The position numbers and the translations under genes were made by a program. A DNA stretch of 29,120 nucleotides from a virus: the IMG/VR virus record IMGVR_UViG_3300025245_000037, positions 1-29,120 of that record; one strand, 5' to 3'. Positions 9,633 to 29,120 of this stretch are shown one piece after another. Numbering within the stretch: position 1 is the stretch's first letter; every line of letters begins with the position of its first letter. Under the pieces are notes generated by a model. That model did no database searches. It was not told where the DNA came from and was given only the letters and a program-made list of their open reading frames with translations.

Positions 9633-9861
9633 TTTCGACTTGAACGAAGGGCATCGAGGGCGCTTGGCCTTCAATGACGCCATCGCGCACAAAGACCTGA
9701 TCGCCCACCGCGCCCTCGCCGCGCGCGGTCAGCACACCGCCACCGGGCAGCGCCAGCCGCGCCACGTCGCCATCGATGGCGGTAATCGTTGCGATCTGCA
9801 GCGGATAGCTCGGCAACAGGTCGAGGAAGGCGGCGTAGGGATTCGTCGAGGCCATGCTCAT
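9628..9861 (-). CDS. Small tail-associated hypothetical protein
   Basis: The product has 77 residues. The ATG at 9861 forms an ATGA overlap with the 631-residue tail protein, which selects it over the ATG at 9855. Residues about 20-77 look like a small beta barrel: alternating hydrophobic strands with a Gly-rich turn (ALPGGGVLTARGEGAVGDQVFVRDG), similar in style to OB or KOW folds. It ends the tail operon, so a small tip component or chaperone is likely; no family is recognised. A CTAAAG-starting purine-rich run follows its stop codon. Confidence 0.75.
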   Translation of the reverse strand: MSMASTNPYAAFLDLLPSYPLQIATITAIDGDVARLALPGGGVLTARGEGAVGDQVFVRDGVIEGQAPSMPFVQVEI

Positions 9862-13658: not shown

Positions 13659-13659
13659 C

Positions 13660-14868
13660 TCAGCGCCACGGTCCCGTGATGTCGAAGAACGCCGCGCCGG
13701 TGCTGTTGGCGGTCGGCACAGCGGTGGTACTGGTGTTCGTCGTGTTCACGACGATGAGATTCCTCCCGGCGAGAGGCCCAGCACCCGGCACCCGGTCATT
13801 GAACTTGAAGCTGTCGAACGCCGACGTATGGGGCGTCGAGTAGAGGCCCGGCGCATCCCCACGAGGTGGCGATGCGGTGTTCACCGCGAAGTAGCGCTTC
13901 GACAGACGCAATGCCCCATCGATGGGACTCGGGAAGGACCCGAAAAGGCCGTCCATGCCAGAGGTCGAAGAGCTTACCCCGGTGTAGGGTAGACACATGT
14001 TGAGCAGGGCCGAGCCCAGTCCCGCAGGAGCGCGCGGAAAGGCGTGTTGCGTAGCGTTGTTGTACTCGGGCTGGCCGTCCGACTGCGAACTCGAATTGTT
14101 CGTGCTCGAATAGCCAAGCGCACATGCATAAGCATCACCACCGGGCCTGAAGGGCACGGCATCCCCAAAAAACTTGGTGAATCCATGCGTAAAGGTCGGA
14201 CTCGATGCGTATCCGGGGCAGACATGAAGATAGAAAGCGCGCGCGTCGCCGATCAACATCCACTGCACTGCCGTGGCGTTCGCCGTGTTGCTCTTGGACC
14301 AGTAGCCACCGCCTGCGATCTGCAGCGCCGTAGGAAACAGTCCCGCATACGTATTGATGTCGCTCATCGACTCGCAGCCGACCACACGCGCAATCGTGGT
14401 GCCGGTGTCGTCAAGCCGAAGAATCATCTTCGTGCTCTGGGGGTCGGTCGATTGAAATGCGGCGACGTTGGTCCCGCTGAAAATCTCGGCGAAACCCAAC
14501 GGCGCCATCTTCATCGTGATGGTGCCGGTGTAGGTGCCATCGGGAAGACTGGTCGCGAAGGTCACCGCAGTGGCGCCAGGCTTGCCGGTGATCTTCTGTT
14601 CGCCATTCATGCCCACCCAGCCGGTCGGGCCGCCGGCCACGCCTGCGATGAGCACTACAGAATCGATCTGCGCCGAGTGCGAGCCGGTGAATGCGGCCGT
14701 CGCAACGCCGCCGGTCACCGTCAACGAACTGAGCGTCTTGAGGTCAAAGCCATCCTTCAGGCACGCGCGGATGACGCCCAGGAGCGAACCGACAGTACCC
14801 GATAGCGCCGGCGCACCGGACATCAGGCTCGAAAAGTATTTGACGGTTGTATCGACAACAGAGGCCAT
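13660..14868 (-). CDS. Putative virion structural protein
   Basis: The product has 402 residues. The ATG at 14868 follows a purine-rich run (AAAGAGAGAAAG) that also contains the preceding stop codon. Residues about 1-120 hold a Gly-rich, Thr-rich beta region; the central and C-terminal parts contain many aromatic and Gly/Ser/Asn residues (AFYLHVCPGYAS, HGFTKFFGD). I recognise no enzyme or lectin motif. Similar proteins are carried by siphoviruses of Gram-negative hosts as tail components, as far as I can judge from general style. Between the large modular tail protein and the LamG protein, it is probably part of the tail tip or fibre. Confidence 0.75.
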   Translation of the reverse strand: MASVVDTTVKYFSSLMSGAPALSGTVGSLLGVIRACLKDGFDLKTLSSLTVTGGVATAAFTGSHSAQIDSVVLIAGVAGGPTGWVGMNGEQKITGKPGATAVTFATSLPDGTYTGTITMKMAPLGFAEIFSGTNVAAFQSTDPQSTKMILRLDDTGTTIARVVGCESMSDINTYAGLFPTALQIAGGGYWSKSNTANATAVQWMLIGDARAFYLHVCPGYASSPTFTHGFTKFFGDAVPFRPGGDAYACALGYSSTNNSSSQSDGQPEYNNATQHAFPRAPAGLGSALLNMCLPYTGVSSSTSGMDGLFGSFPSPIDGALRLSKRYFAVNTASPPRGDAPGLYSTPHTSAFDSFKFNDRVPGAGPLAGRNLIVVNTTNTSTTAVPTANSTGAAFFDITGPWR

Positions 14869-14871
14869 GGT

Positions 14872-14887
14872 TTCTTTCTCTCTTTAG
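14872..14887 (-). repeat. Purine-rich intergenic motif, copy 2
   Basis: The same CTAAAGAGAGAAAGA sequence as at 9615-9632 follows the large modular tail gene, including its stop codon, and precedes the ATG of the 402-residue virion protein. It supplies the purines for that gene's ribosome binding. Confidence 0.5.
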
Positions 14888-17800
14888 GGACGGTCCACGC
14901 CAATCAGGACGAGGATTTCGAAGGAGTCATCGAGCACCGTCTCGGCGCCCATCTGCACAGTGCGAATCGGCACAAAGGGGAAGGTCGCGGCCACCGTGTT
15001 GAAGCGGATGAGCTGGCCGGAAGCCCAGCCCGAGCCGAAGCCGGCGGCCGGGATCGTCATGTAGGGCACGCCCGAGGGGCCGAGCGGCGAACAGTCCGCA
15101 GTCATGGGTTGACCGGTGACGATCTGCCCGACGTGCTCGCCGATCAGGTTGTAGGTCGTGCCGCCGGCGTTGATCTGGATGCGCCACCGCTCGGTGACGG
15201 CGCCCTTGTTCGTGACCGTGATCGGGAAATCGATGTCGTTAAACGTCGGGTCCGCCGGGTTGCCGATGAGCGCGTCAGACCAAACACCGGTCCACGTCTG
15301 CTGATCGAAGAGCAGCGACACCCGCGCCTTCACGTCGCCCATGGGCAGCGCGCTGCTCACGCAGCTGTCACCCGAGCTGTAGTCGTGCGTGACGCGGCCG
15401 GCGAATGCCAGGCGGCCATCGATGCCGACATCCGAGACTGTCAGCAGGTCTTCGATGCGGTGCTCGACCACGACCGGCTGCACGTAGCTCGACACGTCGG
15501 TGAATGTCACGGTGCCGGCGTCGAGGTTGCGCGTGTAGCCCGTCTCGATGGTGGCGCCGTCCGCACCCACGATGCGCACACGCGAGAGGCGCACGCGCCC
15601 GACATCGAGGGTCTGCCCGTTGGACACCACGGCCGCCGGCATGCGCTTGGTGTTGTGGATGACGACGAGCTCACCCTTGCGGAAGATCGGCACGCGGCCA
15701 TCCGAAGGCAGGCGCACCGGGTCGAGGCCGAGCAGGGTCGCATCGACAGGCAACGTCGTGTAGGCCACACCGTTGTATCGAATGGTGCTCGCGAAAACCG
15801 GGACCGGCTTCCAAATCTTGCCGTCGCTGCCGACCGCATCGGCCGAGTACCAGATGGCGCCCTCGTTGCCGGCGGCCGTCACCCAGTCGCCGAAACGCAC
15901 TTTGCCGACGCCCGTCGATGCGTCGAAGGTGCCGTGCACGTTCGTGCCGTTGATGAAGCCCGAGGCGTCGGCCGTGACGTTGATCGTGCCGCCGTTGAGC
16001 TTCGTCGCCAGGAGCTGCAGGCTGTTCGGGCTGACAGGCGCCACCGGCGTGCGGAAGACGACGTACTCCACCGGCTGACTGTCCAGCGACGTGAGCAGGC
16101 TGTTCACGACGACCGAGGTCGAGGCCGAGGCCGGCCAGGTCGTGAGCGCGGCGGTATTGGTCGCGTAGTCGTAGGTGCCGGCCAGCGAGGCGGCGCCGGT
16201 GGCCGGGTCGAGGTCGGTGTAGAGCGAACCGGCCCGGTCGAAGTAGGTCTTGCCGCCGAACGTGAAGTTGATCGCGCCAGGCACACCCTTCTCGCTGGCG
16301 TTCGGCAGCAGCTTGATGAAGAGCTTCGGCTGATTGAACGTCTGGCTCTTCGTGGTGCCGGCGCCGGCCACCCGGAAATTCACCGTCACGAGCGCCGTCG
16401 AGTCGGTCGGCAGCGAGGCGTTGAGGTTCGCGTGGGTGTAGCCCGTGAGGGTGTTGCGATAGAAGCCCGGCAGGTTCGGCGAGAGCACGGTGCCGAGCAC
16501 GCCCTGCGGGCTGACGGCCCATTGCGGCACCGGCACGCTCACGACGGCCTCGGGGTAGAGCTTGGCGATGCCGGTCGAATAGACGATGGTGCCGAACTCC
16601 ACGCCCAGGCCATCCACCAGCTTGCCGGCGCCGTTGTCGGTGACGGTCTTCGTCGCCGCGAAGTTCTGCGGCACCCACTGATCTGCCGGCACGCCGTTGG
16701 TGGACTGCAGGATCAGATTCCAGTCGAGGGCAACCGAGCGCGGCGCGATGTTGGTCTTGCCGAGGTTCAGCGTGATGGCGCCGTCGAGATCGCGCGCCGG
16801 CGCAGGGAAAATCTTCGTCTCCGGCGCGCCGTGGCTGTAACTGACCGTGAAGGCCACGGCCGAGGCCGGCAGCACGTTCGGCCGCAGCTCGATGGTGCTC
16901 GACGCATAGGACACCGGGCCGGTGGCGTCGCCCGTGAGCAGGCCGCTGCCGTTGTCGCTGGCGTGCCGGTCGGCACCGTCGTTCCAGTCCACCGACACGG
17001 TGCCGGCCTGCGCCGCCTGATTGTCCAGCGCCAGCATGATCGACACGGCCGCCGTCAGCGTGCCGCTGCGGTCCTTGTAGTTCGCCTTTGCCGCCCAGGT
17101 GAAGATCACTTCGCTGCCCACGTCTGGCAGGCTCCCCAGCGTCGGCAGGGCCGTGCCCGTCACGAAATCCACCGTGCCGCTGCCGATGCTGGAATCCGTG
17201 CCCGCCAGCCTCCCGCCGCCGTCGTCGGCCAGCTCGTACCAATTGCCGCCGGCGCGGTAGGCCACGCGCAGCGAGCCAGGCGCCGGCGGCGGCAGGATGG
17301 TCAACGGGTAGTTGATGCGACGGCTCTCCAGCGTCACCGCGATGGAGGTCGAGTCGGCCAGCTCGATGGGCGCGCCGGCCGGGCGGAAGGTGATCGCCTT
17401 GTTTCCGGTGATCGTGGGCGCATCGCTGGCGAGCGTCATCGCGCCGCCGGCGTAGTTGACGCTGCCCACGGTCAGCGCGCCGAGCTTCAGGCGTCCGCCG
17501 TCGTCGGTCAGCGTGCCCGCCGAAGTCGCCACCGAAAGCGAGCCCGGGTAGGCAGGATTGCCGAAGGTGATGATCGAATTCGGACCGAACACTACGCCGG
17601 TATTCAGCGTCACGGTGCCCGAGCCCGAGGCAACGAGCGAGGTCGAAGAGCCGGCGGCCGACATGTCCACGAGCGGGATTTCGGTCGTGGCGCTCGGCAC
17701 GAGCTGCGTGCTGATGGTGTTGACCCTGGCGGACAGGTCGCCGGTGCTCACGGGCGCGGCGAGCTTCGCGATGCCGTAGAACTTGGCGGCGTTCGCCACG

Positions 17801-18465
17801 AGCATCCGGTTGACCGCTGCGGCGGTCGCGGAGCGCTCGAAGAGGCGGCTTGCGGGCGAGCCCGTGTAGTCGTTCTTCAGGCCATCCAGCAGCTCGCAGA
17901 TGCAGACCTGCGCGGCATAGTCCACGAAGGTGCCGCCGGTGCTGTAGCTGTAGGTGCGCTGTTCCACCGAGACATCGGACACGCGCACGTATTCCGTCTT
18001 GCCGCCGCCGCTGATCTGCAGCGTGCCGTTGATGTTCGGCGGCGTGGCGCCGGGGCGCTGGAAGATTTGAAGCGAGCGCTGCCCCTGAACGTGGTTCGAC
18101 AGCATGTAGCCGTTGAACTCTTCGCCCGGGGCTGTGTACGCCTCGATGCGGTTCTGGATGCTCGCGCGGCGGTCGAAGAAGTCGCCCGTGTAGAAGAGCG
18201 CCGGGCTCACGTTCGCATCGAGCGGCGGGCGCGAGATGATGACCAGACCGCCGAGGGCGGTATCGGTGTTCAGGGTCTGCACCGTCGCCGCGATCTTCAT
18301 AATGGACACGTCGCCGCGCGCGCGGTCCACCGCCGAGATGTCCTTGAAGATGGCGTTGCTGGCGCCATCGACGATGACCTTCGAGGTCGGCGCGCCGCCG
18401 CCCTCGGGAACGTCATCCATCACCTGCGTGGCGACGAGTTTCAGATCGGATTCGAGAATGGTCAT
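14884..18465 (-). CDS. Large modular tail protein with repeated beta modules
   Basis: The product has 1193 residues from the ATG at 18465, which overlaps the preceding stop as ATGA; an upstream extension in this frame is a shadow. Residues 1-250 form an N-terminal domain. From about 319 a recurring unit appears: D(N/D)G-x-G-x-L, 8-12 residues, then G-T-(V/I)-x-Y/F-x-T/S-G and a Leu. Copies lie near 319, 413, 503, 609, 742 and about 835. The units are separated by strand-rich segments, suggesting a string of Ig-like or beta-sandwich modules. It is the longest virion protein and follows the tape-measure region, so a central tail-tip or fibre role is likely. It is not homologous by eye to lambda gpJ. 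Confidence 0.82.
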   Translation of the reverse strand: MTILESDLKLVATQVMDDVPEGGGAPTSKVIVDGASNAIFKDISAVDRARGDVSIMKIAATVQTLNTDTALGGLVIISRPPLDANVSPALFYTGDFFDRRASIQNRIEAYTAPGEEFNGYMLSNHVQGQRSLQIFQRPGATPPNINGTLQISGGGKTEYVRVSDVSVEQRTYSYSTGGTFVDYAAQVCICELLDGLKNDYTGSPASRLFERSATAAAVNRMLVANAAKFYGIAKLAAPVSTGDLSARVNTISTQLVPSATTEIPLVDMSAAGSSTSLVASGSGTVTLNTGVVFGPNSIITFGNPAYPGSLSVATSAGTLTDDGGRLKLGALTVGSVNYAGGAMTLASDAPTITGNKAITFRPAGAPIELADSTSIAVTLESRRINYPLTILPPPAPGSLRVAYRAGGNWYELADDGGGRLAGTDSSIGSGTVDFVTGTALPTLGSLPDVGSEVIFTWAAKANYKDRSGTLTAAVSIMLALDNQAAQAGTVSVDWNDGADRHASDNGSGLLTGDATGPVSYASSTIELRPNVLPASAVAFTVSYSHGAPETKIFPAPARDLDGAITLNLGKTNIAPRSVALDWNLILQSTNGVPADQWVPQNFAATKTVTDNGAGKLVDGLGVEFGTIVYSTGIAKLYPEAVVSVPVPQWAVSPQGVLGTVLSPNLPGFYRNTLTGYTHANLNASLPTDSTALVTVNFRVAGAGTTKSQTFNQPKLFIKLLPNASEKGVPGAINFTFGGKTYFDRAGSLYTDLDPATGAASLAGTYDYATNTAALTTWPASASTSVVVNSLLTSLDSQPVEYVVFRTPVAPVSPNSLQLLATKLNGGTINVTADASGFINGTNVHGTFDASTGVGKVRFGDWVTAAGNEGAIWYSADAVGSDGKIWKPVPVFASTIRYNGVAYTTLPVDATLLGLDPVRLPSDGRVPIFRKGELVVIHNTKRMPAAVVSNGQTLDVGRVRLSRVRIVGADGATIETGYTRNLDAGTVTFTDVSSYVQPVVVEHRIEDLLTVSDVGIDGRLAFAGRVTHDYSSGDSCVSSALPMGDVKARVSLLFDQQTWTGVWSDALIGNPADPTFNDIDFPITVTNKGAVTERWRIQINAGGTTYNLIGEHVGQIVTGQPMTADCSPLGPSGVPYMTIPAAGFGSGWASGQLIRFNTVAATFPFVPIRTVQMGAETVLDDSFEILVLIGVDRP

Positions 18466-18872
18466 TGTTCGGACGGTGTGACGGTGATGAGGCGCACGGT
18501 GGCGATGTAGGGGTAGTCCTCGGCCGGCAGCTCGGGGCGCGCCAGCGGCTTGCCCTCGACGGCCACGCCGGGCGCGAACTGCACCGTGAAGGCGCGGCCA
18601 TCGGCCAGCACGAGGGCGTGTTCGCCGACCGGGTTCGCCTCGTTGAGCGCCTTCAGGGCCTTGAGCGCGCCGCGCTGGATCCATCCGGCCTCGACCTCGC
18701 CCTGCAGGGTGATCGGCTGGCCGGCCAGGCGCACCGCGGCATCGATGAGCGCAGCGCCGGTGACGGAGTAGCCGAGGCTCTTCTCGACGGCGTTCCACGC
18801 GAATTCATCGACCCAGACCATGCCGCGCGGAATCTGCAGCCCGCCGAGGATGTGAAACTTCGGTGCGGCCAT
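18462..18872 (-). CDS. Small tail protein downstream of the tape measure
   Basis: The product has 136 residues. The ATG at 18872 lies one base after the tape-measure stop. A Gly/Ile segment (HILGGLQIPRGMVWVDEF) is followed by an ITLQGEVEAGWIQRGALKALKAL block (about 60-83), reminiscent of distal-tail or baseplate beta-barrel domains with an I-x-L-x-G strand followed by a helix, then a strand-rich C-terminus ending in IATVRLITVTPSEQ. Its stop overlaps the start of the large modular tail protein. A distal-tail adaptor role is inferred from place and fold style; no family is assigned. Confidence 0.75.
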   Translation of the reverse strand: MAAPKFHILGGLQIPRGMVWVDEFAWNAVEKSLGYSVTGAALIDAAVRLAGQPITLQGEVEAGWIQRGALKALKALNEANPVGEHALVLADGRAFTVQFAPGVAVEGKPLARPELPAEDYPYIATVRLITVTPSEQ

Positions 18873-18873
18873 G

Positions 18874-21591
18874 TCAGGCTCCCGGGCGCAGTGACGACGT
18901 GCCGCGCGCGGCACCGAGCTGAGCGAGCAGGCTCTCGATGGCGTCGGCGCCGGCGGCGTCGGTGTTCACCCGGCCATAGTCGCGGCCGTTGAGCTGCAAC
19001 TGCAGGTTGACGGTGCGATTCGATTCGGGCTTCGGGATGCTGGTCGGGGTCTGGCCGTCGCCGAAGAAGGTCACCTTCTCGGCCGCCCTCAGCAGCGCAT
19101 AGCTCAGCGTGTCGCCGCCGTACTTCTTCTGCCCGGGGTTGTTGAAGAACTGAACATTGCCCTTCTCGTCGGCGAACTCGCGGGCGATGCGACGGGCGGT
19201 TTCATCGTCCTTGATGCCTGCGTTCTTGAGGAACGCGGCGATCCCGGTCAGCGTGCCCAGGTCGCTGCCCGCGTTCACGGTCTTGCCGTTCTTGTCGGTC
19301 GAGAAGCCGTTCGCGTCGCGGCCAAGGCGTTGGTTCTCGAGTGCGATTTCGCGCTGCTTGAGCTGGATCTCTTTCTCGCGCGCCTCGATGTCGCGCTCGC
19401 GTGCGTTGGTGACCTCGCGCAGGGCGCCGGCCAGGCCGAAGGCCGCCTGCGTGGCGTTGGTCTGCGCGTCCTTGAGTTTCAGCGTGGCGCGCCCGGCGCT
19501 GTCGAGCACGACCTCGAAACCGCGCATCGCGGCCTGCGCCTGCACCCAGGCGGGCGCCACGCCGTTGCTCGCTGTGATGGCGGCCTCGGCCGCGCGCTTC
19601 CATGCCTCGCCGAGGCCGCTGGCGGTCGCCTGCCCGCTGTCGCGGATCAGCTCGTAGTCACGCAGCGCGACCTTCGCCATGGTTTCAAGCTCGGCCTTCG
19701 TCTGCACGCCGGCACGCTGGAAGGCCGCCGCGATCTCGGCCGCCGCGTCCGCCTGCGCCTTCTTGTTGGCCCCGGCGGCGTCGGCCGCTGCGTTGTTCGC
19801 CTTCTTCAGCTCATCGAGCTTCTGCACCGCCAGCTCGAAATTCTTCGTCTCGATGGCCTGCGCGTATTCGGCGCGCAGGCGCTCGACGGTGGCTCGGGCT
19901 TCCTCCGCCTTGACCTTCTGCGCTTCGGCCGCGCTGGCGGCCTTCTGGCCGGCTTCCTGCGCCCCGTCGCCAGCGGCCTTCATCTCGGCCGCCATGTTCG
20001 TGAATGCCGCCGCGCCGCTGGCCGCTGCCGCCGTGGTCTTCTCCGCGTAACCGGTCAACCCTGCCCAGCCGGAGCGCGCCTGTTCCGCGCCCTCGGCCGC
20101 GCGGTCGAAGGCTTCGCCGGCCTTCTCCCCGAAGGCATCCGCCACCGCGCCGGTCGCCTCGGCCGAGGCGCGCACCTCATCGGCGGCCTGCTTAAACGCC
20201 GCCGACAGGTCGCCGAAAGTGATCTTCTCCAGGCCGGAAATGATGGTGGCGATGCCGTCCTGCACCGCGCCGACCACGGCCGTCATGCCCTCGGCGATTT
20301 TGAAGATGGCCGCGAGCACGACATTGGCACCGGTGGACATGACGCCCCACACGGTCTGCACGATGTTGCCGGCGTTCTGCGCCTTGCGGCCGAAGTCGTC
20401 GAGCAGCGCGCCGGCACGGTCGGCCATGGCCTGCGCCTTCTCGACCAGCGCCGGCACGTCCACGCTCGCGATGAACGCCTGCACCCACTTGATGCCGTTC
20501 TGGAAGGCCGTCGCGAGCGCGTTTCCGAAGCGGCCCACGGTGCCATCGGCCACGGCCGCGCGCAGGGCGCCGGACAGCTGCTCGACGCCCTGCTTCAGCA
20601 CAGGCAGGATGGGCGTGGTCAGCGCGTTGAGCGTGGAATCCCATGCGGTGCGCAGCCCGTTGAGCGCGCCCTTCAGATTGGCCTGCATCACGCCGGCCGT
20701 CTCGGCGGCGCTGCCCTTCGCGTTCTGCAGCGACCTGGTGAGTTCGTCGAGCTTGTCCACGCCCTGATTGAGCAGCGCGCGCAGCGCTGGGCCGGCCTCC
20801 TGCCCCACCGCCGCAATCGCTCTCTGCCCGCCCGGGCCGGCAGCGGCCAGCTCGTGCAGCATCTTCTCGAAGTTGTTCGTCGTGATGCCGGCCGCTGCCA
20901 GCTCCGTGCGGAACTTGCTGGCCGGGTCGGAGAACTGGGCGAGGATGCTGTTCAACGCCGTGCCGGCGCGGCTTGCGTCGATGCCGGCATCAGCGAACTT
21001 GCCGATGATCGCCACGGTGGATTCGAGGCTCAGGCCGAGCGTGTTCGCCAGTGGCGCCGCGTAGCTCAGCGCCTGCGCCAGGCCCGACACGCTGGTGTTC
21101 GTGGCATTGGCACCCTTGGCGAGCACGTCGGCCACGCGGCCGGAATCAGCGAACGACAGGCCCAGGCCGTTCACGATCTTCGTCAGGTACTCGGCCGAGG
21201 TCGCCAGCTCGACATCGCCGGCACGCGCGAGCTGCATGGCCGCCGGCAGCGTGCCGATCGCATCCTTGACGCTGAGACCGGCCTTTGCCAGGTTCTCCAG
21301 CGCGCCCGCCGCTTCCAGCTCGGTGAAGCCATAGCGGGCATCTGCGGCGGCTTCCTGCGCGGCCTTGCGCAGCGCGCGCATCTCGGCCGCTGTGGCGCCC
21401 GTGGCGGCCTGTACGCGGCTGAGCGCCTGTTCGAGGTCCGCTCCGCCCTTGACCCACCCCACGAACGCCTGAATGCCGAAGTAGCCCAGCACGGCGGCGG
21501 CGAAGACGGCGAGACGCGCCTGCAGGCGGTCGAACACCTTGGACGCATCGTCCTTGGCGTTGATGAGGATCTGGATCGGCTTGAAGGCCAA
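18874..21591 (-). CDS. Phage tail tape measure protein (TP901 type)
   Basis: The product has 905 residues and starts with TTG at 21591, preceded by AAAGG seven bases upstream. The N-terminal part (about 50-320) is the TP901-type core: GGADLEQALSRVQAATGATAAEMRALRKAAQEA, then the ARAGDVELATSAEYLTKIVNGLGL and STVAIIGKFADAGIDASRAGTALNSILAQF segments. The rest is a long Ala/Lys/Glu-rich helix with short hydrophobic segments (about 405-440). It sets tail length; at about 0.15 nm per residue this predicts a tail near 135 nm (inference). TTG start and two upstream hairpins suggest output well below that of the tail tube. Confidence 0.95.
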   Translation of the reverse strand: MAFKPIQILINAKDDASKVFDRLQARLAVFAAAVLGYFGIQAFVGWVKGGADLEQALSRVQAATGATAAEMRALRKAAQEAAADARYGFTELEAAGALENLAKAGLSVKDAIGTLPAAMQLARAGDVELATSAEYLTKIVNGLGLSFADSGRVADVLAKGANATNTSVSGLAQALSYAAPLANTLGLSLESTVAIIGKFADAGIDASRAGTALNSILAQFSDPASKFRTELAAAGITTNNFEKMLHELAAAGPGGQRAIAAVGQEAGPALRALLNQGVDKLDELTRSLQNAKGSAAETAGVMQANLKGALNGLRTAWDSTLNALTTPILPVLKQGVEQLSGALRAAVADGTVGRFGNALATAFQNGIKWVQAFIASVDVPALVEKAQAMADRAGALLDDFGRKAQNAGNIVQTVWGVMSTGANVVLAAIFKIAEGMTAVVGAVQDGIATIISGLEKITFGDLSAAFKQAADEVRASAEATGAVADAFGEKAGEAFDRAAEGAEQARSGWAGLTGYAEKTTAAAASGAAAFTNMAAEMKAAGDGAQEAGQKAASAAEAQKVKAEEARATVERLRAEYAQAIETKNFELAVQKLDELKKANNAAADAAGANKKAQADAAAEIAAAFQRAGVQTKAELETMAKVALRDYELIRDSGQATASGLGEAWKRAAEAAITASNGVAPAWVQAQAAMRGFEVVLDSAGRATLKLKDAQTNATQAAFGLAGALREVTNARERDIEAREKEIQLKQREIALENQRLGRDANGFSTDKNGKTVNAGSDLGTLTGIAAFLKNAGIKDDETARRIAREFADEKGNVQFFNNPGQKKYGGDTLSYALLRAAEKVTFFGDGQTPTSIPKPESNRTVNLQLQLNGRDYGRVNTDAAGADAIESLLAQLGAARGTSSLRPGA

Positions 21592-21638
21592 CGGGAAACC
21601 TTTAGGGAAGTGGGAATAGAAGCGGAAGCCAGTGCGGC

Positions 21639-21699
21639 GACGTATGGCGCCTCATGCGAAGCGCCAGGCGTCACCGCCGCCGGGAGGCCGGCGACGGCG
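21639..21699 (-). other. Two tandem RNA hairpins between tail tube and tape measure genes
   Basis: In the leftward (sense) RNA the first hairpin has 12-base arms (21699-21688 and 21683-21672) around a four-base loop; two pairs are G-U, so it forms better in the sense RNA than in its complement. The second pairs TGGCGC with GCGCCA (21666-21661 and 21650-21645) around a 10-base loop, with outer GACG/CGTC pairs. Neither is followed by a U-tract, so a standard terminator is unlikely. They may block decay, pause polymerase or reduce downstream expression. Confidence 0.7.
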
Positions 21700-21707
21700 A
21701 GGAAGCG

Positions 21708-22496
21708 TCAGGCAGCCACGGGGCGACCGTCCACGAAGATCGCCACGCCGTTGGGCGGGGTCAGCACCTCGACATCGAACTCCATCGAGGTGTAGGCGTC
21801 GTCGCTGGTGATGAGCGACAGGTCACCGGTGGGCGTGAGCGTAACGAGCGGCATATAGGTGTCGCTCTGCTCGCCGTCTGCGATGTTGGAGATGACGCGC
21901 AGCGCACCGCGGCGCAGCGTCTTCTCGCTCGACTTGATGGTCTGCCAGGTCGCGGCCGGCTTCGTGTACGCGACCTTGATCGGGCCCGCAGGGATGTTGC
22001 CGCCGGCCAGGATCTGCAGGCGGCCGAGCGCCGCGTCGATGGTGTAGTCCGTGCCCAGCTCGAAAGGATCGCCGCCGGCATCCGGCGTCACGACGACCGC
22101 CGAGACATTGCGCGCGCCGGCCGGATTCGCGTCGGTACGGCCGAGCTGATAGAAGCGGCCCGGAATCACCTTCAGCGCCTCTGCCGCGACCGAGCCGGCC
22201 TCTTGCGTGGTCGTGGACTTGTCGCCCGAGATGAACATCGCGCGGTTGTCGATGCTCATGTTGTCGCAGGTGATCTTGCCGGTGCGGTCGATGCGTACGA
22301 CGCGATCCGCATCCTTCACGCCCGGGCCGACCTCGGCGCTGTAGTGCGGCGCCTTCTCGGTCGAAATGCTCAGCGTGACAGTGGGGCAGTTACCGAAATG
22401 ACGCTCGCCCGTGATCTGGTCGGCGTCGTCGATGGGGTCGAAGAACACGCGGCCGCGCGGGATGACGTATTCACTCTTTTCGAATTTGTTTGCCAT
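21708..22496 (-). CDS. Phage tail tube (major tail) protein
   Basis: The product has 262 residues. The ATG at 22496 follows GGAG by six bases; open frame further upstream is a shadow. The N-terminus MANKFEKSEYVIPRGRVFFDP and the order terminator, tube, tape measure identify it as the tail tube subunit. The sequence is beta-rich throughout with Gly/Asp turns, and there is a C-terminal AIFVDGRPVAA. About 262 residues is in the range of lambda gpV-like proteins that carry an added C-terminal domain. The stop is followed by two hairpins before the tape measure, instead of a tail assembly chaperone. Confidence 0.85.
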   Translation of the reverse strand: MANKFEKSEYVIPRGRVFFDPIDDADQITGERHFGNCPTVTLSISTEKAPHYSAEVGPGVKDADRVVRIDRTGKITCDNMSIDNRAMFISGDKSTTTQEAGSVAAEALKVIPGRFYQLGRTDANPAGARNVSAVVVTPDAGGDPFELGTDYTIDAALGRLQILAGGNIPAGPIKVAYTKPAATWQTIKSSEKTLRRGALRVISNIADGEQSDTYMPLVTLTPTGDLSLITSDDAYTSMEFDVEVLTPPNGVAIFVDGRPVAA

Positions 22497-22516
22497 GGTG
22501 GCTCCGTTGAAAGGGT

Positions 22517-22927
22517 TCACTCCTGACCGAGAAACCGGCCGGTCGTTGAGAAGAGAAGCTCGATGCCGACATGGCCTTCGAGCGGGTATTGCGGCGGGGC
22601 GAAGCGCACCAGCGCCAGGGCGCCCCACCGGCGGCCACCGGCTGCGCCGGGCTCCCAGTTGTGAAGCGATGCGATGACCGCCGAGAAGGCAGCATCGAGC
22701 AGCAGCGCGGCGTCGGGCCCGTGCTTGGCGCAAAGCAGCACCTGCCAGCCCGGCTGGAGCGCTACGGCGCCTGCCTTCACGTCCGATACCGCACCGGCAG
22801 CGAACATGACGGACGCCAACGCATGCCCGGGCCGTTCGCCCATGTCGGTCGTGTAGCCCTTGACGGTCCACGGGGTGGACAGCGACTCGCGCAGCCGCTC
22901 CACGATGACGGATTCGAGTGCAAGCAT
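22517..22927 (-). CDS. Putative tail terminator protein (lambda gpU position)
   Basis: The product has 136 residues. It has an N-terminal helix (VIVERLRESLSTPW), then alternating strands and a conserved-looking WQVLLCAKHGPDAALLLDAAFSAVIASLHNW region (about 60-90), the layout of small tail terminator or tail completion proteins. It starts two bases after the gpFII-like stop. Lambda has two proteins (Z and U) here; only one is present. The assignment rests on position, size and predicted alternation, so a head-tail completion role is an alternative. Confidence 0.7.
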   Translation of the reverse strand: MLALESVIVERLRESLSTPWTVKGYTTDMGERPGHALASVMFAAGAVSDVKAGAVALQPGWQVLLCAKHGPDAALLLDAAFSAVIASLHNWEPGAAGGRRWGALALVRFAPPQYPLEGHVGIELLFSTTGRFLGQE

Positions 22928-22929
22928 GG

Positions 22930-23232
22930 TCAGGCGCTCCCGAGGGTCAGGCGGACGAAGCCAGCGCCGTCAGGGTCGGTGCGCATCACTTCGTACACGG
23001 TGCCGCGAACGGTGATCGTGTCGCCCCGCGCCAGGCTGCCCAGGTCCGCCATGGCGCCGGAGCATTCCGGCGCACGCGCATCGACCTGTCCCTCGAAAAG
23101 ATGGGCCGCGGGTTCGTCGAAGATGACAGGCACGTCACGCCCGGCCACCGTCGCGATAGCGTTGGCGAGATGCCCCAGCACGCCGGCATCCACCATGCGC
23201 TCGATCTGGGCGAAGGGAGCTTCCATCAGCAT
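22930..23232 (-). CDS. Head-tail connector, lambda gpFII-like
   Basis: The product has 100 residues. The first ATG at 23232 is preceded by AGGG; an in-frame ATG two codons later is possible. The C-terminal half (GDTITVRGTVYEVMRTDPDGAGFVRLTLG) has the beta-barrel pattern of the Phage_attach/gpFII family, which adds to filled heads to create the tail attachment site. The preceding segment has VIFDEPAAHLFEG, also in family style. It lies directly after the capsid gene as in lambda, where FI and FII follow E; no FI equivalent is present. Confidence 0.83.
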   Translation of the reverse strand: MLMEAPFAQIERMVDAGVLGHLANAIATVAGRDVPVIFDEPAAHLFEGQVDARAPECSGAMADLGSLARGDTITVRGTVYEVMRTDPDGAGFVRLTLGSA

Positions 23233-23244
23233 TGCATCCCTCGC

Positions 23245-24258
23245 TCAGCGCACCTTGGCCGCGAAGGACGCGTTGATGCGGTACGGCACGGGCAGCGGCG
23301 CCGACTGCAGCAGCAGGATGCGCACGGCCGGGTCTTTCTCGATCCACGACTTCGAGAAGTACGGCACCGCCTGGAAGCCGGCCTCCTCGTCGCGGATCGC
23401 GCCGTACGCACGGGCGCCTTCGAGGTCGGGGCTGGTGATGATGACGGTGTAGTCGGGCAGGTAGGGCACCAGCTCTTCCGTCTCCGGGTCTTCGTACCAG
23501 CCGGCATAGACCCAGATGTCGAAGTCGCCGATGTTCCCCATGTAGCGACCGCCCTCGCCCACCACCGTGGGGTTGAGCTTGTCGTTGCCGCGGAAGCGGT
23601 CGAGCAGCTTCTGCACCGAGGGCGCAGCGCTGAAGAGCTGCCAGGCTTTGACGTCCATCACGAGGGTGTTGGCCGCCGCACCCGAGTGCTGCGTGACCAG
23701 CATCGACCACTCGTTGACATCTTCGAGCGGATCGACGCCGGTTTCGCCCCACCGGTTGCCGGCGGATAGAGCCTTCGTCAGATCGGCGTGGCGGCCGAAG
23801 TCCACGACCACGGCCGGGTACTCCTCGCCCACCACCGTGACTTTGCCGGTGCGCAGGGCCTCGACCGCCATGACCTCTTGGCGGCGCGACAGCATCTCGA
23901 GTTGGTCCTGCAGGTCACCCGCGAGCAACGCCTGCTGACGCTGCGCCGGCGACAGCTCGCCGCCGATGCGCTCGCCGATGGAGCGCTTGAAGGGTCGCGA
24001 GCTGTCGAACACGCGCTTGTCCTTCACATAGGCCGGCTTGAAGGTGCCGGTCTTGAAGCCCTTCGACTGCACGACCTTGCCGGCCACGATGGGCGCGACG
24101 AAGGGCGCCAGGCGGCGACGGCCGTTGGCGACATCGAAATGGATGTCCTCGCTCGTCTCCGTCTGCAGGTCGCGGAAGAACGAATTGAGGATGAACGGTG
24201 CCGGAGCGGGCAGCTCGGCGATGACGCGCGCGAGCACGCCGGTGGAAAAGATGTCCAT
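23245..24258 (-). CDS. Major capsid protein, lambda gpE family
   Basis: The product has 337 residues, very close to lambda gpE in size. The N-terminal MDIFSTGVLARVIAELPAP and LNSFFRDLQTETSEDIHFDVANGRRRLAPFV match the Phage_cap_E family pattern, as do the middle EALRTGKVTV and the C-terminal region with FDIWVYAGWYEDPETEELVPYLPD. It has the HK97 fold by family knowledge. AGGAG lies nine bases before the ATG. It follows the decoration protein as in lambda and probably has the strongest translation need in the operon. Confidence 0.95.
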   Translation of the reverse strand: MDIFSTGVLARVIAELPAPAPFILNSFFRDLQTETSEDIHFDVANGRRRLAPFVAPIVAGKVVQSKGFKTGTFKPAYVKDKRVFDSSRPFKRSIGERIGGELSPAQRQQALLAGDLQDQLEMLSRRQEVMAVEALRTGKVTVVGEEYPAVVVDFGRHADLTKALSAGNRWGETGVDPLEDVNEWSMLVTQHSGAAANTLVMDVKAWQLFSAAPSVQKLLDRFRGNDKLNPTVVGEGGRYMGNIGDFDIWVYAGWYEDPETEELVPYLPDYTVIITSPDLEGARAYGAIRDEEAGFQAVPYFSKSWIEKDPAVRILLLQSAPLPVPYRINASFAAKVR

Positions 24259-24317
24259 GAAAGTTTTCTCCTGTGGGATGAGGGGTGCGGGTGCTGCTGG
24301 TGTGGCTGCGGCCTCGT

Positions 24318-24695
24318 TCAGGCCATGTCGGGCAGCAAGGTGATGCCCTTGGTGCGCAGGCCTTCGGTGAGGCTGTCCACCGTGTGGCCGGCGCCAATCA
24401 CCAACGCGCTCACGTTGAAGTCGCCCCGGGCGTAGCCCAGCGCCTCGCGGTCGCCGCCGGTGGCATCGACCGTTTCGGCGAGGATCAGATCCGGCTCTTC
24501 ACTGCCATCGGTGGCCGCGGCGGCGCTCACGGTGTGCTTCTTCGAGGCGGTGATGACGCCGAGCACGGTGCCGGCGGCGTAGACGCGACCGGCCAGCAGC
24601 GTGACCTTGCGGCCGACGAGCAGGTGAGCATTGCCCGCGATGAGCACCTTGGATGCCGAGACGCTCTCGGTCTTGAAATCAGCGCGATAGTCCAT
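24318..24695 (-). CDS. Head decoration protein, lambda gpD family
   Basis: The product has 125 residues. The ATG at 24695 follows CAGGAG by eight bases; a longer open frame is a shadow. The Ala/Gly/Val-rich beta sequence with LVGRKVTLLAGRVYAAGTVLGVIT and GYARGDFNVSALVIGAGHTVDSLTEGLRTKGITLLPDM matches the HDPD/gpD family, whose trimers stabilise the expanded head. It lies between protease/scaffold and capsid gene as in lambda. Confidence 0.9.
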   Translation of the reverse strand: MDYRADFKTESVSASKVLIAGNAHLLVGRKVTLLAGRVYAAGTVLGVITASKKHTVSAAAATDGSEEPDLILAETVDATGGDREALGYARGDFNVSALVIGAGHTVDSLTEGLRTKGITLLPDMA

Positions 24696-24736
24696 GTCTG
24701 GAACTCCTGAGTTGCGGTCTGGGGATGAGCTGCGAA

Positions 24737-25162
24737 TCAGCGCGAGCCGCGGAAGCTCGACACGATCTGGCTCGCGAGCGCGGCCTCTTCGGAGGCCGGG
24801 CCGGTTGCGGCCTCGACGCCCGACACGTCGGGGTTGCCCATCGTGGCCATGGCGGTCGCGAAGGCGTTGGCTCCCGCCGCCGGAGCTGCGGCAGGGGCGG
24901 CGGCGAGAACCGCGCCGGCCTGCTCGACCGTGAGGCCGCTGGTGACGCACTGGATGGCGAGCTGCGTGCGGCCCGCTGCGGCCTCGTGCGCGAAGATGCC
25001 GCTCACGCGCGTGCGTTCGGCCTTGGCGCCTTCTTCGCGACCCTCCGCGCGCGCGTTGTCGATGTGGGACTGCGTGAATGCGCCCGGGTTGGCCGGCGGG
25101 GTGCCGGCGTTGGCTGCTGCGGCTTGTTGACCGCCCGCCTCGTTGGTGGTGGTGCCAGACAT
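24737..25162 (-). CDS. Nested in-frame scaffold protein (lambda Nu3-like)
   Basis: This is an internal start in the protease gene. AAAGGAG lies five bases before an in-frame ATG at 25162, a far stronger ribosome-binding site than chance would place there. The product would be 141 residues: MSGTTTNEAGGQQAAAAN start, a charged helical part (about 33-53) and an Ala-rich C-terminus. Lambda makes Nu3 in the same way from inside gene C. It is expected to guide capsid shell assembly and be cleaved by the full-length protein. Confidence 0.85.
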   Translation of the reverse strand: MSGTTTNEAGGQQAAAANAGTPPANPGAFTQSHIDNARAEGREEGAKAERTRVSGIFAHEAAAGRTQLAIQCVTSGLTVEQAGAVLAAAPAAAPAAGANAFATAMATMGNPDVSGVEAATGPASEEAALASQIVSSFRGSR

Positions 25163-26089
25163 TGAAACTCCTTTGTCGTTGGCGTTGGATCGGGCGGTCG
25201 GCCCGACAGGAAAGGACCGGCTGCGCTGGGCGGCCAGTTCGGAAATGAGTTGGTCTGTGGTGGCGATGCGGTCTGCCAGACCGGAGGCGACAGCGGCGAA
25301 ACCCGAGTAGCTGGCCGCCTGCGTCTTGCGCACGGCCGCGGCATCCATGCCGCGATGACGCGCCACCGCATCCACGAACATCGTGTAGAGACCATCGATC
25401 TCGGTCTGCCAGGCGCTGCGCACGTCCTCGGGCAACGGCTCGTACGGATTGCCGTCCACCTTGTGCGCACCCGCGAAGATGTGCGTCACCGTGATGCCGT
25501 CCTGATCGAGCGCGCGCGAGAAATCGACGTGGCGCGAGACGACACCGACAGAGCCTGCATACCCCGTGGTTGTCACGGCCACTTCATCCGCCGCGCTGGC
25601 GCCGAGGTAGGCGGCCGACAGGGCCATGCCGTCCGCAATGGCATGCATGGGCTTACGCCCGCGCAGATCGAAGATGCGCTGCGCGTACTCGAAGGCACCC
25701 TGCGCCTCGCCGCCGGGGCTGTCGTAGACCTGCAGCACGGCATGCACGTCCGGATGGCTCATGGCGTCTTCGAGGTCGGCCGCCAAGTCGTTGTAGCCGA
25801 CGAGGTAGATGCTCTCGGCCATGTCGAGCCTGCTGCGATGCAGGAGCGCACCGCTGACGTTGAGAACGGCGACGCCTTCGACCACGCGATAGCCACGGTC
25901 GCTCGCCTCGCCACGGCGCGTCGAGAACAGTTCCGGCGCGAGCAGGCGGGAACCTTCTGCCGCAGCGACAGCCAGCGGCGCGGCACCGAGCAGGCGTTCG
26001 CTCAGGCCGGCAATGATGGCGTCGAGCTTCTGCGGGTGGATCAGCAGCGGCGTGTTGAAGATGCGCGCGGCGATGTGGGGATATCTCAT
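24737..26089 (-). CDS. Prohead protease, S49 peptidase family (lambda gpC-like)
   Basis: The product has 450 residues. The N-terminal 290 residues form an SppA-type S49 domain, including SPGGEAQGAFEYA (oxyanion region, 124-136), Ser158 in ADGMALSAAY as likely nucleophile and Lys210 in IFAGAHKVDG as likely general base, equivalent to the Ser/Lys dyad of lambda gpC. The last about 140 residues are Ala-rich with a coiled-coil-like segment (HIDNARAEGREEGAKAERTRV) and correspond to the scaffold, which is also made separately (next entry). The start overlaps the portal stop as ATGA. Family knowledge says it cleaves the scaffold and portal in the prohead. Confidence 0.94.
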   Translation of the reverse strand: MRYPHIAARIFNTPLLIHPQKLDAIIAGLSERLLGAAPLAVAAAEGSRLLAPELFSTRRGEASDRGYRVVEGVAVLNVSGALLHRSRLDMAESIYLVGYNDLAADLEDAMSHPDVHAVLQVYDSPGGEAQGAFEYAQRIFDLRGRKPMHAIADGMALSAAYLGASAADEVAVTTTGYAGSVGVVSRHVDFSRALDQDGITVTHIFAGAHKVDGNPYEPLPEDVRSAWQTEIDGLYTMFVDAVARHRGMDAAAVRKTQAASYSGFAAVASGLADRIATTDQLISELAAQRSRSFPVGPTARSNANDKGVSMSGTTTNEAGGQQAAAANAGTPPANPGAFTQSHIDNARAEGREEGAKAERTRVSGIFAHEAAAGRTQLAIQCVTSGLTVEQAGAVLAAAPAAAPAAGANAFATAMATMGNPDVSGVEAATGPASEEAALASQIVSSFRGSR

Positions 26090-27723
26090 GCGGTGGTTTC
26101 CTCGGTCTGGTCGCTGCCGTCGCCCTTGCCGCCGCCGGATGCGTCGGGCTGGTCGTCATCGCTCGTGGTCTGGCCGCTGGCGGCGAGTGCCACGGCAATG
26201 GGCTGCGCGGTAGTCAGGCCGCGCTCGGCGGCCATGCGCAGTTCGATGGCGCGCTGGTCCATGACCTCTTCGAAGTCGTCGCCCTGCTCCGCGCATTCCT
26301 TCTCAAGCGTCGAAATGCCCGTCTCGATACGCAGCGCAGCGGCCTGCGCTTCCTTGACTGGATCGACCCAACCGCGACCGCCGAAGATGAAGCGCGCACG
26401 CAGGTAGGCGTAGCGGTTCTCGTAGAAGCCAGGGGCCTCGATCTCGCCGGCGTTGATCGCCTCTTCGAGCCACAGCTCATAGATGGCACGCAGCCAATAG
26501 TCCGACAGCCACCGGCGGCGGCCGTGGAAATAGCGCCAGGCTTCGAGCAGCGCGGCGCGTGCGCTGCTGTAGTTCGACTTGCTGAAGTCCTTCAGCAGCA
26601 GCTCATAGGGCAGGTTCATGCCCGCCGCGATGTGCCGCAGCGAGGCCAGCATGAACGCCTCGAAGGCTTGATTCGGACGGCCCGGCGTGAAGCTGGAGAG
26701 GCGCGCACCGGCGGGCAGCGGAATGACCGCGGCGCCCTTGAGCTGGCGGATGTTGCGGGTCTGCGCGACCGAGGCATTCCACGCATCGCGCGGGTTCTCG
26801 CCGAACAGCTCGGCAGCGGAAGCCGGGTCGAGGTCCGATTCGAGGAACGCAGCAACCAGCGAATTCGCAAGGCTCGCCTGCAGTTCGTTCGCCGCGTACT
26901 TGCCGGCCATATGGAATTCGCGCATGACGGCTGATACGACCGGCTTGCCGCGCGACTGCCCGGTGCGTTCCTTGTCGTGCAGATGGATGACGCGACGACG
27001 GCCCCAGGGAGTGAAAGCGGGCACGCGGTCCCACTCCATGAACTGCGCCTCTCGCGTCATGCCGTAGAAGCCGAAGGCGAAGGCGTCACCCGGATGGCGC
27101 TTGAGGATGTGGTACGCGACGGGAGCGCCCCACTTGTCGAACTCGATGCCCTTGCGGATGTCCTCGCGGTGCTCCATGCCGACCGGTGTCGCCAGTCGGT
27201 CGGACTCCACCATCATGAGCCGCGTGTTCCAGCGCGAGCCAGGACGTGGCAGCCACAGCGGCAATGCCAGAGCATCGCCGTTGAGCATCGCGCCGCCGAG
27301 GGCCTGCAGGGTCATGCCAAGGAGGTTCTGCGTGCGCGCGGCATCGCACTCGGGCGTCTCGGCCCAAGAGCGGAATTTGGCTTCGGTGACGTTGCCCCAC
27401 TCGCGAGCGCGCTCGCGCGTCCAGCCGAGCAGGCGGTAATCCGGCGTAGCACTCAGGCGCAGCACCGAGCCCACGATGTTGTCGCGCAGGGTCTGCATGC
27501 CGCCGGCCATGAGGCCGTTGTTGCGGCCGAGGTCACGCGAGCGCGCGGTCAGCGTGTCGAGGTCTGGCAGCAGGTCGGCATCGGCACTGCTAGCTACCGG
27601 GTTCCAGTCGCGCATCGCCAGGTCGGTGCCCGAGGCGGCATCGTGTGCGGCCATCGCCGCGCCAGGGCGTGCAGACACGCTGGCGCTTGCGGACGGATGG
27701 CGGTGACGGGTGCGGCGCGCCAT
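26086..27723 (-). CDS. Portal protein, lambda gpB family
   Basis: The product has 545 residues. The ATG at 27723 lies one base after the gpW stop; the open frame continues upstream only as a shadow. Family motifs include AMRDWNP near the start, DLDTLTARSRDLGRNNGLMAGGMQTLRDNIVG, and MNLPYELLLKDFSKSNYSSARAALLEAWRYFHGRRRWL in the C-terminal half. These are typical of the Phage_portal_2 family. The C-terminus is a Gly/Asp-rich tail. Twelve copies form the vertex through which DNA is packaged. The length fits lambda gpB (533). Confidence 0.95.
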   Translation of the reverse strand: MARRTRHRHPSASASVSARPGAAMAAHDAASGTDLAMRDWNPVASSADADLLPDLDTLTARSRDLGRNNGLMAGGMQTLRDNIVGSVLRLSATPDYRLLGWTRERAREWGNVTEAKFRSWAETPECDAARTQNLLGMTLQALGGAMLNGDALALPLWLPRPGSRWNTRLMMVESDRLATPVGMEHREDIRKGIEFDKWGAPVAYHILKRHPGDAFAFGFYGMTREAQFMEWDRVPAFTPWGRRRVIHLHDKERTGQSRGKPVVSAVMREFHMAGKYAANELQASLANSLVAAFLESDLDPASAAELFGENPRDAWNASVAQTRNIRQLKGAAVIPLPAGARLSSFTPGRPNQAFEAFMLASLRHIAAGMNLPYELLLKDFSKSNYSSARAALLEAWRYFHGRRRWLSDYWLRAIYELWLEEAINAGEIEAPGFYENRYAYLRARFIFGGRGWVDPVKEAQAAALRIETGISTLEKECAEQGDDFEEVMDQRAIELRMAAERGLTTAQPIAVALAASGQTTSDDDQPDASGGGKGDGSDQTEETTA

Positions 27724-27724
27724 C

Positions 27725-27952
27725 TCAGACCATGTAGATGGGGCCACGCGAGCTGCCGCCCGAGCGGCGGTCAAGCTCTTCGCTCACGGCGGCGATTTCC
27801 TTGCGGATCTCGGCGACGTTCTGCTGGTACTGGACAGACCGCCCGTTGTGGGCGGCGCTAGTGGGAGCGGTTAGCCGGTCCTGCAGCGACGCCATGAGGC
27901 GCGTGCGGGCGGCTTGAAGTTCAGAAACTGAGAGGTGGCGGTAAATGCCCAT
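27725..27952 (-). CDS. Head-tail joining protein, gpW family
   Basis: The product has 75 residues. The pattern is that of gpW: an N-terminal helix with SELQAARTRLMASLQDRLTA, a middle RSVQYQQNVAEIRKEIAAVSEEL helix, and the RGPIYMV end, matching the C-terminal RRGPAGFYV style of lambda W. It plugs the portal after packaging. There is no strong ribosome-binding site before the ATG at 27952. In lambda gpW follows the large terminase gene; here a divergently oriented nuclease gene takes that place. Confidence 0.88.
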   Translation of the reverse strand: MGIYRHLSVSELQAARTRLMASLQDRLTAPTSAAHNGRSVQYQQNVAEIRKEIAAVSEELDRRSGGSSRGPIYMV

Positions 27953-28115
27953 GCATGCGATGACAACAGTTCATCGCGGACATTTCCGCTGGACCAAAGT
28001 CACAAACTGCAGTCCGACTCGGACAGAATGCAGAGTTGCATGCAACGTCAAAACTAACCTCTGCGCATTACCTGCTTGCGGTCACCAAGCGCCGGCATCA
28101 GCCTCAAAAAGAACT
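27953..28115. promoter_or_regulatory. Palindrome-rich intergenic region between gpW and the PIN gene
   Basis: Three inverted repeats lie in 163 bases: GCGATGA/TCATCGC with a 7-base spacer (27957-27977), GTCCGA-C-TCGGAC (28012-28024), and the perfect 12-base palindrome GTTGCATGCAAC (28035-28046). Such arrangements are typical of operators. No clear sigma70 promoter with good spacing is visible for the PIN gene, whose ribosome-binding site is also weak. Inference: a regulator, perhaps phage-encoded outside the window, controls this region. Confidence 0.5.
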
Positions 28116-29120
28116 ATGCAATCAACGTTTTATGGCTACTACCCTCCAACAGACCTTCAATATGGGTTGCTATGGAAGGAGGCAACAATTGTCTTGGACA
28201 CCAACGTTCTACTGAATCTCTATCGCCTACCAACGACCGCGCGGGATGAATTCATTTCAGCACTGGAAAACCTGAAGTCTCGACTGTGGATTCCACATCA
28301 GGTAGCTCTAGAGTTTCAACGCCGACGGCTAACCGTGATTGCAAGCGAGCGAAAAAATACCGAAGAGGCAGTGAACGCGGCCAAAAAATTGGCAGGAGAG
28401 CTAAAGGCGAAGATCGAAGCGCTTCAAATCGACAAAAGGGACATTGGCATAGATGTCAAACCATTAATCGAGGGCTTTGAAAACGCCAACTCAAAACTCG
28501 TTGATGCATTGGACGTTGCGCACGCAAGACAGTTTGAGATATCAGCCTCCGACGCCCTTAGAGACTCGCTTGACAAGCTTTTTGAAGGAAAAGTCGGCGA
28601 TGGCCCTAAAGATCAAAATGAACTTGACTCTCTTTCATCGAATGGCGACGAGAGGTATGCAAACAAGATACCGCCCGGCTTCGCGGATATAGACAAAGAA
28701 AAGAACCCAACGGAAGCGTACTTCTTTCACGATCACCTCAAGTATGAAAGAAAGTTCGGCGACTTGATACTTTGGCGCCAAATTCTGTCACATGCAAAGA
28801 TAAACTCGATTAAATATCTGATTTTTGTAACGGCTGATAGAAAGGATGATTGGTGGTGGCGCGAACAAGGGCGGACAATCGGAGCTCATCCCGAATTACT
28901 TAGAGAGATGAAGCGCGAAGGTGAGGTAGAGCTCTTCTGGATGTACTCTCCGGCGCAGTTTCTCGAGCATGCCAATAAGTTTACGACCATTGAAGTTTCA
29001 TCCCAGTCGGTTGACGAGGTAAAACAAGTCGCAGCAGACGATCTGAAAATTATTCAGTCTAATGAATTGAAAGTTAGCCCCAGCTTGCTTGATCGCGCAG
29101 CCTCACATCGCGAGCGAGCG
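28116..29120 (+). CDS. PIN_8-type PIN-like nuclease, 5' part (runs off window)
   Basis: An open frame of 335 codons starts at ATG 28116 and is still open at the window edge, so the C-terminus is missing. ATIVLDTNVLLNLYR (23-37) is a PIN motif with Asp28. Glu66 in VALEFQRRR is a second acidic site. A charged helical insert (about 75-170) precedes the PPGFADIDKEKNP segment, then KFGDLILWRQIL with Asp216 and IFVTADRKDDWWWREQGR with Asp241 and nearby Asp244/245. This order fits the PIN_8 (PIN-like domain) family, and all acidic metal ligands expected of a PIN nuclease are present. It is AT-richer than the phage genes and opposes the late operon, typical of a cargo gene. RNase activity and a defence role are inference. 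Confidence 0.88.
   Translation, partial: MQSTFYGYYPPTDLQYGLLWKEATIVLDTNVLLNLYRLPTTARDEFISALENLKSRLWIPHQVALEFQRRRLTVIASERKNTEEAVNAAKKLAGELKAKIEALQIDKRDIGIDVKPLIEGFENANSKLVDALDVAHARQFEISASDALRDSLDKLFEGKVGDGPKDQNELDSLSSNGDERYANKIPPGFADIDKEKNPTEAYFFHDHLKYERKFGDLILWRQILSHAKINSIKYLIFVTADRKDDWWWREQGRTIGAHPELLREMKREGEVELFWMYSPAQFLEHANKFTTIEVSSQSVDEVKQVAADDLKIIQSNELKVSPSLLDRAASHRERA

Follow-up and report, generated by a model that had tools for sequence, protein, structure and literature searches.

A predicted PIN-domain nuclease gene that lies within the head-gene cluster of a virus raises the question of whether it belongs to the phage and, if so, what it does there. Such a gene starts at the right end of a 29,120-bp IMG/VR virus record, the whole of which is referred to here as the window. 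The initial annotation saw in it a moron carried by the prophage, possibly a defence or abortive-infection gene, inserted at an unusual place.

A PIN_8 gene inside a lambda-like late cluster

The start at position 28116 on the plus strand is correct, and the gene is opposed in strand to the head genes, as first described (Table 1). A Pfam profile search with its 335-codon part matched PIN_8 (PF18476) at residues 25-261 (E=1.9e-58; profile positions 2-227 of 227), with 198 bits against a curated cut-off of 26, and HMM matches of E=4e-58 and 7e-61 place it in PIN_8 and PHROG 9788. The acidic residues of the PIN site, which had been called complete, are all present (D28, E66, D216 and D245) and invariant in 27 homologues. 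The gene was also said to be AT-richer than its neighbours, and its G+C content is indeed 0.47 (GC3 0.49) compared with 0.63-0.68 (GC3 0.77-0.83) for terL and the portal gene. It is under purifying selection, with a dN/dS of about 0.12 between the two lineages that bear it.

The final 11,005 bp of the window are matched letter for letter by another contig, L002 (IMGVR_UViG_3300002773_000005), which extends it rightward, and both L002 and L003 carry the PIN gene at 100% identity and read through into the Mor-like and terminase genes. The large terminase that had been expected beyond the PIN gene was found there, about 0.4 kb past the gene end, with the Mor-like gene in between. Like the Mor-like gene, it lies on the strand opposite to the PIN gene, and it encodes a gpA-type protein of 745 aa with a nuclease (E=2e-96) and an ATPase (E=8e-58) domain. 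Past it, L002 encodes a replication-initiation-like protein, a CII-like regulator and an S24 repressor. Nu1-type small terminase matches were obtained in 4 of 6 records, each under the Pfam cut-off. The best match to the terminase in the phage collection was below 60%, and there is no close named phage. On the other side, the description of the gene as directly upstream of gpW held for the position but not for a clear Pfam gpW identity, as the 75-aa product is a head-tail joining-type protein by weak matches, one to phage_HTJ at E=1e-6, under that NCBIfam model's cut-off, and one to the PHROG adaptor Ad1.

The PIN gene is flanked by the Mor-like gene and terminase gpA on one side and by the gpW-like and portal genes on the other. 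That the window ends inside the gene, and that its composition is unlike that of its neighbours, could also mean that the contig is chimeric or that the gene belongs to the host and marks a prophage breakpoint, but L002 and L003 read through the junction at 100% identity, and the junctions recur, at about 90%, in a separate lineage, L004. These contigs refute that explanation and leave it practically no probability. As the terminase is present to the right in L002 and L003, the PIN gene is therefore phage cargo rather than a breakpoint gene of the host, carried by a prophage inside a lambda-like late cluster, and the moron reading is upheld.

Table 1. Features of the PIN_8 locus. Positions are those of the window unless prefixed by L002.
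Feature	Position	Strand	Remarks
PIN_8-family gene	28116..29120	+	335 of 488 codons, 5' part; contig end cuts the rest
Complete PIN_8-family gene, 488 aa	L002:10001-11467		overlapping contig
PIN_8 domain, aa 25-261	28188..28898	+	PIN fold split by ~150-aa mostly helical insert
Catalytic motif I, D28-T29-N30	28197..28205	+	invariant in 27 homologues
Catalytic motif II, E66	28311..28313	+	invariant in 27 homologues
Catalytic motif III, D216	28761..28763	+	invariant in 27 homologues
Motif IV, D241-R-K-D-D245 (TADRKDDWW)	28836..28850	+	D245 invariant, D241 is D or E in 27 homologues
Mor-family protein, 100 aa	L002:11552-11854	-	Pfam Mor E=3.6e-13; PHROG "late transcriptional activator"
Conserved right border of hotspot	27953..28017	-	directly upstream of gpW start; occupied and empty sites
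gpW/head-tail joining-like protein, 75 aa	27725..27952	-	NCBIfam phage_HTJ and PHROG Ad1, both weak; precedes portal
Lambda-family portal protein	26086..27735	-	Pfam Phage_portal_2 E=1.5e-100
S49 head maturation protease	24737..26089	-	Pfam Peptidase_S49 E=4.8e-33
Head decoration protein D	24318..24710	-	Pfam HDPD E=9e-19
Major capsid protein E	23245..24258	-	Pfam Phage_cap_E E=5e-70

A Mor-like activator gene between the terminase and head genes is a feature of this lambda-like family, and a short HTH ORF also occupies the Mor-like position in L069, L093, L104 and relatives with another head module. Elsewhere in the window, a minus-strand gene (2605-7170) encodes an RHS-repeat-like protein of 1521 aa whose C-terminal end is atypical and low in G+C, and adjoins small Rz-like ORFs (7632-8257) and a 199-aa ORF (2045-2644). 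The locus looks like a polymorphic toxin carried as cargo, possibly together with its immunity gene.

A recurrent accessory-gene hotspot between the Mor-like and gpW-like genes

Relatives were gathered from IMG/VR by terminase and portal, and most of the resulting loci are IMG/VR contigs. In 12 close relatives, the spacing of neighbouring genes was compared all along the stretch that runs from terminase to tape measure, and only the Mor-gpW gap varies (925-5396 bp), while the other head-gene gaps vary by no more than about 20 bp. Both flanks were present in 46 loci, of which 40 were occupied and six were empty (L060, L065, L074, L087, L092 and L102; 82-164 bp). By blastn clustering of their contents, the occupied sites hold 35 different cargoes of 0.9-7.4 kb. 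Their median G+C is 0.48, and that of the 3 kb downstream is 0.67. Cargo is missing from relatives that combine the terminase with another type of portal; in these, the Mor-like gene directly adjoins the gpW-like one. The place is therefore not unusual, as had been claimed, but a recurrent accessory-gene hotspot in this phage family, and its cargoes, at least 35 in the 40 occupied sites and several of them without a defence-library match, make up a list of candidates. Relatives that lack the PIN gene set the ends of the insertion between the Mor-like stop codon and a conserved element upstream of gpW.

The PIN gene fills this slot in two lineages, one represented by the window, L002 and L003 and the other by L004. 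The two have portals that are 97% identical, PIN proteins that are 85% identical, and equal junctions. L004 differs in structure from the window: at L004:6718-6726 it joins window position 8125 to 25888, so that the whole structural block of about 17.8 kb between the lysis-side genes and the portal is missing, and its terL has a frame break while the PIN gene is still open. L004 may be a decayed or defective prophage, or a misassembly.

To characterize the company that the PIN gene keeps, slot cargo was annotated using Pfam and PADLOC, the scan covering slot proteins only. Named defence systems were found in several relatives, including a Lamassu system with LmuA and LmuB (L013; E 5e-149 and 1.5e-219), DSR2 in two lineages (L016 and L034; E ~1e-131 or better), and Thoeris ThsA and ThsB (L036; E 3e-198 and 2e-52). 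Other slots hold a metallo-beta-lactamase-type PDC-M48B with a patatin phospholipase (L023), a TIR-DnaB fusion with a DUF6602 protein (L039), a NACHT ATPase (L022), an Mrr-type nuclease (L021), an AlbA_2/Schlafen protein with a DpnII/MboI-like nuclease (L033), a DUF4062 protein (L017), or a trypsin-like protein (L029). A further 78 cargo proteins, taken together, include AbiLi, AriA, GajA/OLD-like ATPases, reverse transcriptases, an NgoMIV restriction enzyme, RloB, and methylases. The 369 PADLOC family matches overlap between related models and do not stand for 369 systems. Non-defence cargo is also present, namely Rha (8 of the 78 proteins), AntA regulators, and an RHS protein (L048). The slot is thus defence-rich, not defence-only. 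In the slots of L029, L035, L022 and L017 there is cargo with no or weak defence-library matches, for example proteins of 912 and 485 aa, which are candidates for new systems. Prophage hotspots are a productive source of new immune systems, and this one lies inside the structural gene cluster.

The right border of the slot is a conserved element, and cargo stops just outside it. In the window it comprises the half-sites GGAC, GTGAC, GTCC and GTCC, with hairpin arms at 27957-27963 and 27971-27977. The four half-sites change in concert between lineages, reading GGACA...GTGAC...TGTCC...TGTCC in the window lineage and GCGAAC...GCGAAC...GTTCGC...GTTCGC in L071, and the element is also found upstream of gpW in L046-L111. 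The hairpin ends 0-4 nt before the gpW ATG, where no Shine-Dalgarno sequence is evident. Of 21 dissimilar sequences, 13 have a perfect stem of 5 bp or more whose end is no further than 4 nt from the ATG, against 0.95 expected from shuffles, and nine have one of 6 bp or more, against 0.23 expected. A 6-mer dyad test was weaker (9/21 perfect, with about 3% per sequence expected by chance), and RNAalifold returned no consensus structure for the element, probably because the MAFFT alignment slips between unequal stems. Neither a role of the element as cos nor an adjacency of the slot to cos was supported. The element may be an operator for the Mor-like activator, a late-gene control site or insulator, or an exchange site for packaging or recombination, and it may allow cargo of every kind to be exchanged, whichever way round, while expression of the head genes stays undisturbed. 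Its presence poses a testable question, namely by what means a phage puts up with cargo genes midway along a late operon. Searching the open-access literature for a defence hotspot between terminase and portal, we found only work on P2/P4 and chromosomal islands. We tentatively put forward that the terminase/Mor-gpW junction of this widespread lambda-like prophage family serves defence genes as a docking site, one not described before and with a conserved border element, in which the PIN_8 protein would be one plug-in module.

Architecture and distribution of the PIN_8 protein

In all homologues, an insert of about 135-170 mostly helical residues parts motif II (E66) from motif III (D216), and the two ends of the protein have evolved at different rates. 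The N-terminal 300 aa are 93% identical to those of L004 and 59% to those of L005, compared with 73% and 18% for the C-terminal 188 aa. Across L005-L009, identity is 50-60% for the N-terminal part and 17-20% for the C-terminal part. Likewise, dN/dS is about 0.05 for the former and 0.29 for the latter. An AlphaFold model built from 27 sequences had a pLDDT of 83.5, with values mostly of 85-97 in the PIN core and about 70-88 in the C-terminal domain, whereas an earlier model from seven sequences was too weak for a useful search.

Foldseek searches with the 27-sequence model gave no significant match (all E > 0.001). The top matches, all of them at E > 0.001, include RPB5-like, NucS, PaqCI and Cap4 chains, which have restriction-endonuclease-type folds in common. 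A PD-(D/E)XK motif is absent from this domain in the window protein, which reads SDF...DVY, while PD...EVK is kept in the C-terminal part of L009 (GFPDFVV...YEVK) and of L123, Rhizobium H46 (GFPDAFA...VEVK). We hypothesize that the C-terminal domain has a PD-(D/E)XK-type fold that lost its catalytic residues in the window protein, and the decayed domain may act as a sensor. Judging by these motifs, part of the PIN_8 family (L009 and H46) could be double nucleases.

Homologues of the protein were found in 60 plasmid records and, among 398 genomes from the phylum to which Acidithiobacillus belongs, in nine. Their plasmid neighbours include an Abi-family gene and an integrase in Enterobacter, an N-6 methylase and IS66 in Sphingomonas, methylase, Vsr nuclease and helicase genes in Ruegeria, and, about 7 kb off, a DUF4297 anti-phage-associated gene in Rhizobium; the Priestia and Pantoea plasmid contexts are not defence-like. 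In L005-L007 the homologue comes after a phage-integrase-like gene, and in L008 (51% identity) and L141 (39%) it adjoins the gpQ portal gene of P2-like prophages. No match to the protein was obtained among named phages by tblastn, and a PDB sequence search gave nothing relevant.

A nuclease fold, repeated insertion at one site, and the PD...EVK motif of some relatives would all suit a homing-type selfish element, the nuclease of which would cut empty sites and so let the gene spread by inserting itself between terminase and gpW. However, the site is shared by 35 cargoes that mostly do not belong to this nuclease family, homologues sit at other sites (next to P2 gpQ, next to integrases and on plasmids), and the window protein has lost the PD-(D/E)XK motif, so we regard homing as very unlikely.

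Predicted function and comparison with known systems

Because the slot in relatives holds named defence systems, it is strongly suggested that the PIN gene is defence cargo, in line with the defence role first proposed for it. Such association tells us about the neighbours of the gene rather than about PIN activity. PADLOC has no model that matches the protein, PIN_8 itself is no named defence family, and a search of the open-access literature for PIN_8, PF18476 and DUF4935 found no functional study. On balance, we consider it likely that the prophage carries the gene as defence cargo and that its product is an RNase triggered by phage infection. In the mechanism that we infer, this one-gene cargo would be transcribed in the lysogen from a promoter of its own to give a split-PIN ribonuclease that is kept inactive. 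Since there is no antitoxin gene beside it, auto-inhibition would fall to the helical insert and/or the C-terminal domain, and the insert and/or the fast-evolving C-terminal domain would also sense an infecting phage. Upon infection, the four-acid PIN site would cleave RNA, perhaps tRNA as VapC does, and this would stop phage growth to the benefit of both prophage and host.

Some slot occupants are regulators (Rha and AntA), and the PIN protein could by analogy be a regulatory or lysogeny-conversion RNase that acts on prophage or host transcripts, for example in host takeover or in superinfection immunity against close relatives only. Yet the gene is missing from most relatives, which carry unrelated genes instead, and it has homologues outside phages on plasmids and bacterial chromosomes, which makes such a role improbable.

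An addiction function is similarly unlikely. The most familiar PIN-domain proteins are VapC toxins (PMC13092281), and a prophage-borne gene of this kind might be a stand-alone growth-arresting toxin that maintains the prophage. However, the slot of 1.7 kb has no ORF for a partner or antitoxin, so the small adjacent antitoxin gene that defines VapBC is lacking, and relatives hold defence systems in the same place. The window protein does share the catalytic acid quartet of PIN with VapC, but at 488 aa, with a split PIN domain, a helical insert and a C-terminal domain, it is not VapC-like; VapC toxins are about 130 aa in size.

For a phage-triggered RNase, the closest tested precedent is DS-3, a one-protein split-PIN system that defends E. 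coli against phage and has no antitoxin (DefensePredictor; PMC13092281). Mutants of its catalytic residues lose protection, and its authors propose that it is auto-inhibited until infection (PMC13092281). By description only, DS-3 and the window protein are alike in being single proteins with a split PIN domain, catalytic residues and no antitoxin, and the window protein fits this scheme. They differ in that the split of DS-3 is between N- and C-terminal parts, while in the window protein motifs I/II and III/IV flank the insert of about 150 aa and a further C-terminal domain follows. Membership in PIN_8, PHROG 9788, "PIN-like domain-containing protein" and DUF4935 rests on HMM matches, and the libraries give PIN_8 no function. 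To this, our analysis adds a hotspot context and a domain architecture, as well as a concrete, testable function and a connection with a split-PIN protein whose role in defence was validated recently.

The slot itself can be compared with the defence hotspots of P2-like and P4-like prophages, that of the P2-like ones being cos-proximal (Rousset et al. 2022; PMC9122126). Both are loci of about 1-5 kb between conserved phage genes with a high turnover of unrelated defence cargo, and both lie next to packaging or portal genes, the P2-like gpQ being the very neighbour of the PIN_8 homologues in L008 and L141. In contrast to the P2 hotspot, which lies between the replication gene gpA and gpQ, the window slot lies between terminase plus Mor and gpW in the late cluster. 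The P2-type neighbours gpP and gpQ are absent there, their places being taken by a gpA-type TerL and Phage_portal_2, and the phage family is a different one, with a lambda gpA terminase, Phage_portal_2 and capsid E. Pararheinheimera phage vB_PsoM_KLER1-1 (OM654378) resembles the window in that accessory genes, three in number and all on the reverse strand, lie at the junction of the terminase and head-tail joining genes. One of them encodes a methyltransferase. However, its cargo is different, its portal is distant (49%), and no Mor-like gene is annotated. Its record opens shortly ahead of TerS, and inspection by eye of the sequence that precedes the head-tail joining gene did not show the border element that marks the slot of the window's family.
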